Shown piece after piece: positions 6,627-47,430 of a stretch of DNA of 64,000 bases. This DNA is from a bacterium HR11 (GTDB lineage Bacteria; Acidobacteriota; HRBIN11), in NCBI GenBank assembly GCA_002898535.1, contig BEHN01000001.1, positions 186,001 to 250,000 on the forward strand. The letters run 5' to 3'. Under the pieces are notes generated by a model. The model was given only the letters and a program-made list of their open reading frames with translations. It was not told the DNA's origin and did not search any database. A program made the translations under genes and the position numbers. How positions within the stretch are numbered: position 1 is the first letter of the stretch; each line of letters begins with the position of its first letter.

Positions 6627-8054
6627 TCATATACCGGTGTAACGGAACATCCGGAATGGGGTGACGAGCAGGATCCACAGGTCCAGCCAGATGGACCAGT
6701 GGGTCAGGTAGTAGAGGTCGTACTCGATCCGACGCTCGTAATCCCGGTCGCCCCGAAAGCCGTTCACCTGGGCCCACCCGGTGATCCCGCCCTTGACCCG
6801 GTGGCGGAGCATATACTGGGAGTACCGCCGGCAGAAGTCGGCCACGAAGTAGGGCCGCTCCGGCCGGGGTCCGACCAGGCTCATATCGCCCTTCAGGACG
6901 TTCCAGAACTGAGGCAGTTCGTCAAAGCTGAGGAAGCGGAGGACCTTCCCGATGGGGGTCCGACGGGGGTCCTGGGCATGGCTCATCGTCGGCCCCGTCG
7001 CCTCTTCGGCGTCTTCGACCATCGTGCGAAACTTGTACATGACGAAGGGCCGTCCGTCCAGGCCCATCCGGATCTGGCGATAGATGACGGGGCCCCGGGA
7101 AGTCAGCTTGATGAGGAGGGCGATCAGGAGCATCAGGGGAGACAGCAGGACGAGGGCCAGGGCCGACAGGACGATGTCGAGGACCCGCTTGGCGACGGCG
7201 GCGGCTCCCTGGAGCGGCGTGTCGTTGATGTTCAAGAGCGGCAGGCCGTCGATTTCCGAGACTGTCGTCCGCAGGTGGCTAGCCGTCAGGACGTCCATCG
7301 CCATGTGGATGCTGATGGGCTGAGTCTGGAACTGCTGGACGATCGACATGGCCTTTGGAAATTCATCCGCCGGCAGGGCGATAAACAAGGCTTGAACCCC
7401 ATGCTCCCGGACGATGCGGGGCAAGTCCTCGATACTCCCCAAGACGGGCACGTCGTGGAAGGCGTCTCCGTTTTCGCCGTCGACCATCCCGACGACCTGG
7501 ATACCGTACTCAGGATGTTGCCAGATACGGCTCGCCAGGGCTCGGCCCAGGGTGCCGTTGCCGACGATGAGGGCGCGCTGGATCTGCCATCCCCGCGCCC
7601 GGAGTCGCTCGGCCAGCCATCGAACGAAGGCCCGGCCGGCGACGATGCCCGTCACGTCCAGGCACATGAACATGACGAACATCAATCGAGAGGGCTCTAA
7701 GAACTGCTCCGGCGGGGCGTTCCGCTGATGGAAGACCCGATAGTACAGGGCCAGGCCCCATACAACGGCCGAGGCCACACCGACGCCGATCAGGATGTGA
7801 AAGAATTCCTCCTCCCGGCCCTCGAAGTGCCGGGGCCGGTAGGCTCGCATCGAGTAGAAGACGACCGTCCAAGCGAGCAAGACTAAACCGAAGAGCTTCC
7901 AGTAAATGGATATCTCCGGATAGCCCCAGCGGACCGGAAAGAGCCACGTGAGGGCATCAAATCGCAGGTAATAGGCCAGCCAGAAGGCCAGGACGGTCAC
8001 GCTCAGGTCAGTCAGCCACTTGAGGAAGCCCACCCAGTAGCCGTAGCTCCTCAT
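6627..8054 (-). CDS. polyprenyl-phosphate sugar-1-phosphate transferase (WcaJ/EpsE-like)
   Basis: A 475-residue membrane protein. The N-terminal half has about five transmembrane helices and a CoA-binding-like Rossmann segment (RALIVGNGTLGRALASRI). The C-terminal bacterial sugar transferase domain has the family signatures YKFRTM, LSFDELPQFWNVLKGDMSL and VGPRPERP. These enzymes start glycan assembly by moving a sugar phosphate from a nucleotide sugar to undecaprenyl phosphate at the inner membrane. The ATG at 8054 is preceded by GGGGAGGG and overlaps the upstream glycosyltransferase by 47 bp, so the two are coupled. Confidence 0.92.
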   Translation of the reverse strand: MRSYGYWVGFLKWLTDLSVTVLAFWLAYYLRFDALTWLFPVRWGYPEISIYWKLFGLVLLAWTVVFYSMRAYRPRHFEGREEEFFHILIGVGVASAVVWGLALYYRVFHQRNAPPEQFLEPSRLMFVMFMCLDVTGIVAGRAFVRWLAERLRARGWQIQRALIVGNGTLGRALASRIWQHPEYGIQVVGMVDGENGDAFHDVPVLGSIEDLPRIVREHGVQALFIALPADEFPKAMSIVQQFQTQPISIHMAMDVLTASHLRTTVSEIDGLPLLNINDTPLQGAAAVAKRVLDIVLSALALVLLSPLMLLIALLIKLTSRGPVIYRQIRMGLDGRPFVMYKFRTMVEDAEEATGPTMSHAQDPRRTPIGKVLRFLSFDELPQFWNVLKGDMSLVGPRPERPYFVADFCRRYSQYMLRHRVKGGITGWAQVNGFRGDRDYERRIEYDLYYLTHWSIWLDLWILLVTPFRMFRYTGI

Positions 8055-9159
8055 CGAGGGCCCTCCCCGCCCGAAATCGAGTCCACGCCCACTGGACGAT
8101 GGCTTGGAAGCGGGTTTGGAAGGCCGTCTCCCCCAGGGTCTCGACACGGGCCCGGATGACGTCCTTATTAAAACGCCCCGTCAGGACCCTGTCAATCGCG
8201 GCCTGGAGGGCCGGGACGCTGACTTCCGGCAAGACGATGCCCGTCACGTCTGGTTCCACGACCTCCCGAGCCCCGCCCCGAGGCCCGACGATGGCCGGCC
8301 GACCGCAAGCATGGGCCTCGGCGACGACCATCCCGAAGTCCTCGACGGCCGGCAGGAGGACCGCATGGGCCCGCTGGTACAGCGTCCGAAGCACTTCGTC
8401 GTCGACCCGACCGACCCACCGGACGTTCGGCGGCGCCCGACGCTGGAGGGTCCGCCGCAGGGGGCCATCGCCCACGACGACGAGGGGGACCCGGGGGAAG
8501 GCCCGAAAGGCCTCGACGACGACTTCGATGCGCTTGTAAGGCACGAGGGCCGACACGACCAGAAAGTGCTCGGGGGCGACGTCGGCCGGCTGAAAGAAGT
8601 CCGTCCGGATCGGAGGATGCAGGACCAGGGCCGGACGACCGTAGTACTTTTGGACCCGGCGGGCGACAAACCGGGAGTTCGCCACAAAGAGGTCGACCCG
8701 GGCGGCCGACACCGTATCCCACCGGCGGAGACGATGGAGGAAGGCGTACTCCAAGAGACGGTACCGGGGTCCATGGCCCCAGTAGTCGAAACGGCGGTCC
8801 CAGACGTACCGCATCGGCGTGTGGATGTAACACACGTGGAGCGTGTCGGGGTCCGGGATAACCCCCTTGGCCACGCAGTGACTGGAGCTCACGACGAGGT
8901 CGTACCCGCTGAGGTCCCATCGTTCGACCCAGTAAGGAAACAACGGCAGGAGCCACCGGAAGTAACGCCGGGCGCCGGGCCATCGCTGAAGGGGGGACGG
9001 GCAGACGCGCACGTCCGGCAGGTGCCGGGCCAGTAGACGGGGATCGGCGATCAGCGTGTACACTGGCGCTCGTGGCCATATCCGGTGCAGGACCGCCAAG
9101 ACCCGCTCGCCGCCCCGCCACGTCACCAGCCAATCGTGTACGAGGGCCACACGTTCCAT
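8008..9159 (-). CDS. GT4-family glycosyltransferase
   Basis: A 383-residue retaining glycosyltransferase. The N terminus VALVHDWLVTWRGGERV and the C-terminal donor site EDFGMVVAEAHACGRPAI, with the E-x7-E motif, are typical of GT4. A LVVSALVPYKRIEVVVEAF strand precedes the donor domain. It probably adds a sugar to the lipid-linked intermediate made by the overlapping downstream gene. The polysaccharide cannot be named. It is first in a two-gene operon, and repeat-rich DNA lies upstream. Confidence 0.92.
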   Translation of the reverse strand: MERVALVHDWLVTWRGGERVLAVLHRIWPRAPVYTLIADPRLLARHLPDVRVCPSPLQRWPGARRYFRWLLPLFPYWVERWDLSGYDLVVSSSHCVAKGVIPDPDTLHVCYIHTPMRYVWDRRFDYWGHGPRYRLLEYAFLHRLRRWDTVSAARVDLFVANSRFVARRVQKYYGRPALVLHPPIRTDFFQPADVAPEHFLVVSALVPYKRIEVVVEAFRAFPRVPLVVVGDGPLRRTLQRRAPPNVRWVGRVDDEVLRTLYQRAHAVLLPAVEDFGMVVAEAHACGRPAIVGPRGGAREVVEPDVTGIVLPEVSVPALQAAIDRVLTGRFNKDVIRARVETLGETAFQTRFQAIVQWAWTRFRAGRALDEELRLLGGLPQVAD

Positions 9160-9233
9160 AACGGAGCCGTTCGTGCGGTGAGAAGTGCGATGGGAAGCGG
9201 AAAGGGCATCTCCACGAAAGCACGATGTTTCAG

Positions 9234-9288
9234 GCAGTTGGCAGATGGGCAGGTGGGCAGGTCGGCAGATAGGCAGATGGGCAGGTCG
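9234..9288. repeat. 8-bp tandem repeat array (GCAGGTGG family)
   Basis: Six in-phase octamers follow a partial unit: GCAGATGG, GCAGGTGG, GCAGGTCG, GCAGATAG, GCAGATGG, GCAGGTCG. The same family occurs at 17518-17590, 24350-24412, 37569-37607, 47357-47430 (inverted) and 49640-49716. Confidence 0.85.
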
Positions 9289-9299
9289 AGCGACGGGCG

Positions 9300-9480
9300 T
9301 CTATCCCCGGAACACCGGCCGTCATGCCGGTGTCTTCTTTAGAGAGCCCGCCGTCCTGCGGGCGTCCTCCTCATGGACCGCCCGTCCTGGCCGGGTCGAT
9401 CCCATCTGAACACCGCCAGGGGTGGCGGCGTCATCCCCTCCAAACACCGCCCGTCATGGCGGTGTCGTCCTTAACAAGCT
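9300..9480. repeat. array of five short hairpins with conserved loop
   Basis: Hairpins begin near 9313, 9346, 9375, 9411 and 9445. Stems differ: CACCGGC/GCCGGTG, GCCCGC/GCGGGC, an imperfect one, CCGCCA/TGGCGG, CACCGCC/GGCGGTG. Four of the five loops are CGTCAT or CGTCCT. Linkers such as ATCCCATCTGAA separate them. The whole block recurs inverted at 47110-47345. Confidence 0.8.
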
Positions 9481-9540
9481 TGAAACATCGAGATCGCCGG
9501 GCCATCGTTTTCCCGGATGGGAACCGCATTTCTCCCGACC

Positions 9541-9660
9541 GAACGGCTCTGATAACGGAGCCGTTCGGTTCGTGAGAAGGGCGTCAGAACGACCTTTCCC
9601 ATCCACCGGCAAGCACGATGTTTCAAAGGGACGGAGTGACGACGAAGTGACGAGCGACGG
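9541..9660. repeat. GAGCCGTTCGG-type dispersed element
   Basis: It starts with GGAGCCGTTCGGTTCGTGAG (about 9557) and continues through CCTTTCCCATCC and AAGCACGATGTTTCAAAG to GTGACG/AAGTGACG heptamers. Inverted or partial copies lie at 9755-9905, 24094-24180, 24411-24520, 37490-37755, 38690-38828, 47086-47160 and 49800-49875. Confidence 0.65.
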
Positions 9661-24085: not shown

Positions 24086-24349
24086 GGCAGTAGCAGAGCC
24101 GTTCGGTTCGTGAAAACCCGCATGGATTCGGCTTTTCCGACCCTTCGAGAAGAATGGTTTTTCAAGCAAAAGGGCAGTTCGGCAGTTCGGGAAGCCGGGA
24201 AGGCTGTTCGGCGGCCGACGTAGAAGGCAGGGGGCGTCCATCGTTCTAAGTCCCCACGCCTCCCTGAAGTTTTCCTGTCTCTTCGCCTCCCCTGCCGCCG
24301 ACCGCCGGCGCCGGCCTCAAGGCCTTATACCTGTCCCGGCCGACCCCCG

Positions 24350-24412
24350 ATGCCCGGATTCCCGAACTCCCGAATTGCCGGATGGCCGGATTCCCGAACT
24401 CCCGACCGGCCT
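24350..24412. repeat. 8-bp tandem repeat array (CCCGAACT family)
   Basis: GCCCGGAT, TCCCGAAC, TCCCGAAT, TGCCGGAT, GGCCGGAT, TCCCGAAC and TCCCGACC in register, the same octamer family as 17518-17590. Confidence 0.8.
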
Positions 24413-24529
24413 GTCGGCCCAAGACCGTTGTTCATCACGCCGTTCCTTCAAAAAATCGTCCGCCCCGAAGGGTCGGAAAGGCTGAATCCATAGGGGTTTC
24501 CAGGGGCCGAACAGCTCTGGTAGGAGGCA

Positions 24530-37424: not shown

Positions 37425-37816
37425 GACGTGCCGACGTGGGGAGGGACGGGGGCTGAGAACGTCCATCCCGTATCTCGCATCCCCTCTTATCAGAGCCGTT
37501 CGGCCCGTGAAAACCCGTATAGATTCAGCTTTTCCGACCCTTCGGGGCGGACGGTTTTTCAAGCTAAGGGCCATTCGGCACTTCGGGAATTCGGGAGTTC
37601 GGCCGAGGGTCCCAAAAGCCCTGCCATCCAGGGCTCCATCGGCCTATCGGCCCAAGGCCGTTGCTCGTCACTCCGTCCCTTCGAAACATCGTCCTTCCCG
37701 GGCGATGGAAAAGGCCGTCCCGACGCCATTCTCACGAACCGAACGGTTCTGTTATCTTGCATCCTGCATCCTGCATCTTGTATCCTCATTTCATCCCGAC
37801 TCCCGTATGGCCGGCG
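37425..37816. repeat. 392-bp intergenic repeat region
   Basis: It contains CAGAGCCGTTCGGCCCGTGA (37491) with its element to about 37565, octamers GCCATTCG, GCACTTCG, GGAATTCG, GGAGTTCG (37569-37607), an inverted element ending CACGAACCGAACGGTTCTG (37630-37752), and GCATCCT/GCATCTT/GTATCCT heptamers (37758-37786). No gene is supported before the ATG at 37817. Confidence 0.7.
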
Positions 37817-46796: not shown

Positions 46797-46867
46797 CTCC
46801 TCATCTTGAGGGGATGGCTTGTGGAATCCATCGGGCTCTGTTGGACATCCCTGAGCCATCGTCTCAA

Positions 46868-46990
46868 AGCCCCTGAGGCGTCCATCCCATCCAAACGCCG
46901 GGCGTCATCCCGGCGTCCCTCGGTCCCGGCGCCGCCGGTGACGGCGGCGTCCATCCCGTCCGGACGCCGGCATGACGACCGGCGTCCGCC
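46868..46990. repeat. array of three hairpins
   Basis: ACGCCGGG-CGTCAT-CCCGGCGT, CGCCGCC-GGTGAC-GGCGGCG and GACGCCGG-CATGACGA-CCGGCGTC, separated by CCATCCCRTCC-like linkers. Stems differ from the 9.3/47.2-kb arrays, while the first loop is the same CGTCAT. Confidence 0.75.
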
Positions 46991-47109
46991 CCCTGTGTCG
47001 GCGGGCCCAGGGCCTCCGGGCCTCTCCAGAAGCCTGAAGAGGATATCGACAGAGCCAATCCATCCCAAGTCCCTCTCTTATAGCAGAGCTGTTCGGTCAG
47101 GAGAAATGC

Positions 47110-47345
47110 GGCTCCCATCCGGAAAACGGTAGCCCGGCGATCTCGACTTTTCAAGCTTGTTAAGGATGACACCGCCATCCCTGGCGGTGTTCAGAGGGGA
47201 TATGACACCGCCATGACGGGCGGTGTTCAGATGGGATCGACCCGGCCAGGACGGGCGGTTCACGAAGATGACGCCCGCAGGACGGCGGGCTCTCTACGGA
47301 AGCCACCGGCATGACGGCCGGTGTGCCGGGGATAGACGCCCGTCG
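47110..47345. repeat. hairpin array, inverted copy of 9300-9480
   Basis: It contains ACACCGCCATCCCTGGCGGT, ACACCGCCATGACGGGCGGT, an imperfect CCCGGCCAGGACGGGCGG, GCCCGCAGGACGGCGGGC and CACCGGCATGACGGCCGGTG. Flanks match on both sides, including TCAAGCTTGTTAAGGATGAC. The order of the two CACCGCC hairpins is swapped relative to the 9.3-kb copy. Confidence 0.85.
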
Positions 47346-47356
47346 CCCGACCGGCC

Positions 47357-47430
47357 CATCGGCCGACCTGCCGACTGCCCATCTGCCTATCTGCCGACCT
47401 GCCGACCTGCCCACCTGCCCATCTGCCGAG
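47357..47430. repeat. 8-bp tandem repeat array (inverted GCAGGTGG family)
   Basis: About nine units of the GCCGACCT / GCCCATCT / GCCTATCT type, one of them a base short, directly follow the hairpin array, mirroring 9234-9288. Confidence 0.85.

Follow-up and report, generated by a model that had tools for sequence, protein, structure and literature searches.

Known modular repeats

MITEs with variable tandem arrays, modular stem-loop elements and REPs that preserve their palindromes are all already known. The BOX elements of Streptococcus pneumoniae are modular (boxA-(boxB)n-boxC), with a variable number of stem-loop units in the center and with terminal inverted repeats (TIRs) and target-site duplications (TSDs) at their borders (PMC3049150). 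The BrickBuilt MITE of Porphyromonas gingivalis has a leader and a tail with TIRs that bracket variable tandem units, is intergenic, and is found only in a few related species (PMC4596501). CGTC-tagged REPs have 8-bp stems, a CGTC AT motif, a high copy number and no dedicated transposase (PMC3733652). GTAG REPs with their RAYT are covarying palindromes that occur in clusters (PMC2817692). In the literature, we found no account of Acidobacteria with such repeats.

The locus described here shares the features just listed for each of these systems but also departs from all of them. The comparison with BOX and BrickBuilt is one of architecture (PMC3049150, PMC4596501). Compared with BOX, its sequence and ends appear unrelated, the end modules are of several interchangeable kinds, the element is GC-rich, and no candidate parent IS was found (PMC3049150). 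BrickBuilt uses one 23-nt repeat and has TIRs close to those of a known IS, whereas the MITE here has octamer and hairpin arrays, TIRs of another sequence and a 4-bp NTAN target, and its hairpins are also found outside of it (PMC4596501). The CGTC REPs have their unpaired tag at an end of the stem and form HH dimers, whereas in the present hairpins the motif is in the apical loop and the arrays are head-to-tail; Acidobacteriota is not one of the five phyla named for the CGTC REPs (PMC3733652). Unlike the GTAG REPs, the hairpins have no GTAG head, their own genome is without a RAYT, and the RAYT of a sister genome is linked to another palindrome (PMC2817692).

The locus

The 64,000-nt stretch of DNA analyzed here (the window) belongs to an Acidobacteriota MAG of 2.99 Mb in 49 contigs (G000), which we compared with two sister genomes (G001 and G002). 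The closest named relatives of one window protein are in the Acidobacteriota MAGs JZ-1.bins.94 (95% identical) and SKYB104 (88%), which, judging from the isolate names, we take to be from hot-spring samples.

A first-pass annotation of the window had described a block at 9234–9552 that is repeated in inverted orientation 38 kb away. The inverted match is real: 9234–9552 and the reverse complement of about 47088–47428 are 88% identical over 315 nt, and both have the octamers, the leader, five hairpins, TTAACAAGCTTGAAA and the GTTCGG end. The two are a pair but not the whole set, as 92 stretches of the same genome match the block and at least 43 hairpin-bearing elements could be parsed. The identity of the window copies would have been in keeping with a 320-bp segmental inverted duplication unique to the two loci, but the dispersed copies with their target duplications refute it, and we give that explanation practically no chance. 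The block is also not a complete unit. It is, very probably, the interior of a composite non-autonomous DNA transposon (MITE) that was moved in trans and carries the hairpins as passengers. The window element has CAGAGCCGTTCGG ends, is 390 bp long and is bordered on either side by the duplicated target (Table 1). The left TSD overlaps the start region of a leftward glycosyltransferase gene (8008–9159).

Table 1. Features of the hairpin-bearing MITE and of related elements in the window
Feature	Position	Strand	Basis
Left target-site duplication, ATAA	9158–9161	.	Direct reading, TSD statistics
Left terminal module, type c: outer TIR CGGAGCCGTTCG... to inner box AAAGCACGATGTTTCA	9162–9236	+	Most hairpin-class elements have this module on their left
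Octamer array, about six GGCAGRTN units	9237–9286	+	8-nt spacing
Leader CGAGCGACGGGCGTCTATCCCCGG ahead of hairpins	9287–9310	+	Conserved in copies
Hairpin H1, ACACCGGC-CGTCAT-GCCGGTGT	9312–9333	+	Perfect stem
Hairpin H2, GCCCGC-CGTCCT-GCGGGC	9346–9363	+	Direct reading, per-pair counts
Hairpin H3, ACCGCC-CGTCCT-GGCCGGGT, stem imperfect in most copies	9377–9396	+	Per-pair counts
Tandem hairpin unit U1, 34 nt, loop AGGGGT	9410–9431	+	Element parsing
Tandem hairpin unit U2, 34 nt, loop CGTCAT	9444–9465	+	Element parsing
Right terminal module, type d: CTTAACAAGCTTGAAACATCGAG... to outer TIR CCGAACGGCTCTG	9470–9551	+	Comparison of copies
Right target-site duplication, ATAA	9552–9555	.	Identical to 9158–9161
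Second MITE, same terminal-repeat superfamily, different interior; abuts the first and shares its ATAA	9556–9894	+	
Other MITE of CAGAGCCGTTCGG superfamily	24094–24519	+	
Other MITE of CAGAGCCGTTCGG superfamily	37491–37751	+	
Unrelated MITE with three hairpins of the same family, ends GGCTCTGTTGGACATCC...GACAGAGCC, 8-bp flanking repeat AATCCATC	46834–47056	+	
Second hairpin-class copy; right end kept, left terminal module missing	47084–47428	-	

Ends, target and mobility of the MITE

Well-preserved copies all have TAxCAGAGCCGTTCGG at one end and CCGAACGGCTCTGxTA at the opposite end. When at most one mismatch was allowed, the genome had 531 CAGAGCCGTTCGG ends vs. 12 for a reversed-pattern control. 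A longer version of the end has 396 matches in the genome, 156 and 1 in the two sister genomes, and none in another 96 genomes from the phylum; a search of viral contigs with the TIR pattern gave no match. Exact 4-bp repeats flank 41 of the 66 paired ends in the stretches read (8.1 after shuffling, maximum 18), and 3-bp or 5-bp repeats flank none of the same 66. The duplicated target is mostly ATAA, TTAA, TTAT, TTAG, CTAA or CTAT, with the consensus NTAN. The remaining 25 paired ends, which are without an exact TSD, count against the MITE reading; some of these pairs join ends of different elements. Insertion is demonstrated by two filled and empty sites: element C7 (TSD CTAA) is present in G000 where both G001 and G002 read through a single CTAA, and the site of element C14 is empty in G001. 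The C7 MITE (L027, 1989–1992) sits exactly at a stop codon, and the duplicated CTAA keeps the TAA stop of the upstream gene.

Elements of the hairpin class are 276–541 bp long and contain no coding gene. Four marks of a MITE are present: TIRs at both ends, a TSD, a length below 1 kb without a transposase gene, and empty sites. The end modules, each about 75 nt long and carrying CAGAGCCGTTCGG as their outer and GATGTTTCA as their inner box, are of at least four kinds that combine freely around different interiors, which makes the whole a superfamily. One orthologous pair of sites counts against the MITE reading. L039 carries a MITE at 1968–2416, and at the corresponding site of G001 (L014, 1297–1685) there are nine hairpins and a few octamers whose internal orientation is reversed, the hairpins adjoining a TIR-like CAGATCCGTTCGC. 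A 1298-bp pair of ends in L055 looked like an IS but was rejected; the ends are separate and enclose what is probably a gene for a secreted protein. The genes flanking the MITEs, as called with a home-made gene caller, are tandem in 22 cases, divergent in 13 and convergent in 2; this skew is probably driven by gap length, and hence no evidence was drawn from it.

Two terminal modules of about 75 nt thus enclose an octamer array and a hairpin array, both variable, and the unit inserts at NTAN with duplication of 4 bp. As to mechanism, a DDE-type transposase acting in trans on these ends probably spread the element and its sister MITEs; action in trans is the usual explanation where a MITE has TIRs and TSDs. 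None of the three incomplete genomes of the genus has the transposase domains PF01609, PF13358, PF13546 or PF13586, which is weak evidence since the genomes are fragmented and the search covered these four DDE domains. Multi-copy IS elements often fail to assemble in MAGs. An IS630/Tc1-mariner origin, which would go with a 2-bp TA duplication and DDE_3, is ruled out by the 4-bp TSD and the absence of PF13358.

Variation of the interior

The parsed elements have from one to seven hairpin units each. The number of octamers differs between copies, and the terminal 34-nt hairpin unit occurs in differing numbers and orders. The two hairpins that the first-pass annotation saw as swapped, and from which it concluded that units move or are replaced individually, are therefore array variants. 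Array length could shift by recombination or slippage between near-identical units.

At a given hairpin position, the stems do not covary from copy to copy. In 52 copies, H2 has 24 broken pair cells and a single one in which both sides have changed; the mismatch in H3 is fixed, and most copies have it. Inside the MITE copies, stem decay thus goes uncompensated, and nothing points to folding being still under selection there. The earlier view that the stems differ yet stay paired does not hold between MITE copies of one hairpin position. The differences on which it was based are between different hairpins of the array, and it is across the wider hairpin family that it holds.

A genus-restricted hairpin family

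A covariance model built from 15 diverse hairpins gave at least 228 matches in the genome itself, at least 183 in G001 and at least 17 in G002, all of them minimum figures because scoring covered 150 candidates in each genome; elsewhere the model found nothing above chance level, and the family is restricted to the genus. Rfam gave no match at the gathering score, and two sub-threshold matches at most. Outside the MITEs, the hairpins are head-to-tail units of 31–35 nt with a conserved xGTCAT loop. For the test of stem pairing, the fetched arrays were searched with a sequence-only model to avoid circularity. The inner stem triplets are GGC/GCC, GCC/GGC, GGG/CCC, AGC/GCT or CGC/GCG, and are perfectly complementary in 109 of 126 units. 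When the best unit of each locus was left out, 90 of 108 were complementary vs. 27 (maximum 42) with the right arms shuffled, although the units share descent and such counts are not independent events. At an array position defined by the downstream spacer alone, three different triplets occur among nine units, every one of which is paired. A fixed loop with covarying stems, as first suggested from the window, is thus a property of the family as a whole. In short, stem covariation is strong in the free hairpin family and absent inside the MITE copies.

The two arms of a unit pair with each other in 76/81 cases, compared with 17/81 for pairing across the spacer (random 29%), which means that the structure is a hairpin with xGTCAT as its loop; the CGTC-tag register was ruled out by the same counts. 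The window array folds better than all of 200 shuffled versions (z -3.25). Strand orientation relative to genes is not significantly biased (11 opposite, 4 same). One orthologous free array has four units in G001 (L176) and one in G000 (L198), the first unit being identical.

The hairpins are also present outside the CAGAGCCGTTCGG MITEs in both sister species, and in the window they are found in an unrelated MITE (Table 1). That the same hairpins occur free and in two unrelated MITE families suggests that they form a family of their own, carried along by mobile elements. They would be passengers that came out of an older, dispersed repeat family restricted to the genus.

The GGCTCTGTTGGACATCC/GACAGAGCC-ended family with these hairpins is also found at L029 (2266–2411) and L044 (59–264). 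A third likely type of MITE has the ends GAGCCTGTTTCAAAACTC...GAGTTTTTGAAATACGCTC and the interior CGCCGAGGCGCAGAGGACGCAGAGGATGAGGG (L041, about 2410–2560; L024, about 1440). L021, L047 and other flanks have intergenic arrays such as GACCATAGACCACAGACCATAGACC and GATGCAAGATGCGGGATGCAGGAT, and much of the sequence between genes is pieced together from short repeats.

Possible causes of stem pairing

With their covarying stems and their presence in the hundreds, these small extragenic palindromes call to mind a REP/BIME-type system, in which each hairpin would be copied singly as single-stranded DNA by a RAYT (Y1 HUH transposase); the first-pass annotation had also entertained copying by such an enzyme. 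Palindrome-preserving change is known for REPs (PMC2817692), and the sister genome G001 does have a true RAYT (NF047646, 108 bits). However, neither G000 nor G002 has a Y1_Tnp, the RAYT of G001 has another kind of palindrome (GCAGACGTCCCCGTCTGC) on its flanks, one that is absent from the window, and direct reading of the arrays reveals no unpaired GT(A/G)G head beside the palindrome. The block moves inside a MITE with TIRs and a 4-bp TSD, and we consider copying by a RAYT improbable. The G001 gene (L210, C103, 1285–1812), bracketed by GCAGACGTCCCCGTCTGC/GCAGGCGTCTCGCCTGC palindrome arrays, is in itself an example of the classic RAYT-REP system from an Acidobacteriota MAG.

With the hairpins taken as passengers of the MITE, pairing in the parent family could be kept either by selection on RNA or single-stranded DNA, or by arm-to-arm correction during replication. 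Quasipalindrome correction by template switching is established in bacteria. If template switching copied one arm onto the other, covariation would arise without selection, and the MITE would merely spread the result. Whole inner triplets change together between units while the outer stem, loop and spacer stay constant, as expected of such copying, and the uncompensated decay in the MITE copies fits the absence of selection, but sporadic mismatches in one arm are seldom seen in free arrays. We regard template switching as a possibility to be taken seriously, if short of probable. The hairpins may instead be selected as a protein-binding RNA or single-stranded DNA element with the loop as the recognition site. 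An xGTCAT loop that stays fixed while the inner triplets take five complementary forms, the pairing within but not across units, and the folding of the window array above all its shuffles argue for a selected element. Against it are the decay in the MITE copies, the lack of significant strand bias and the fact that selection-free arm correction yields the same pattern, and we find selection for binding rather unlikely. It is doubtful that the xGTCAT hairpins represent a new kind of structured repeat that keeps its pairing through selection by a loop-recognizing protein or through its own copying, and that has spread alone and in at least two unrelated MITE families.

Significance

The locus presents a two-layer system: a MITE with several interchangeable end modules that carries a separate hairpin family with strong stem covariation. 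With 531 ends, the mobile element is very abundant, and by a rough estimate it takes up about 2–3% of the 3-Mb genome. Because free and MITE-borne arrays differ in whether the stems stay paired, an odd duplicated block with covarying stems becomes a testable question of selection vs. replication-driven arm correction.
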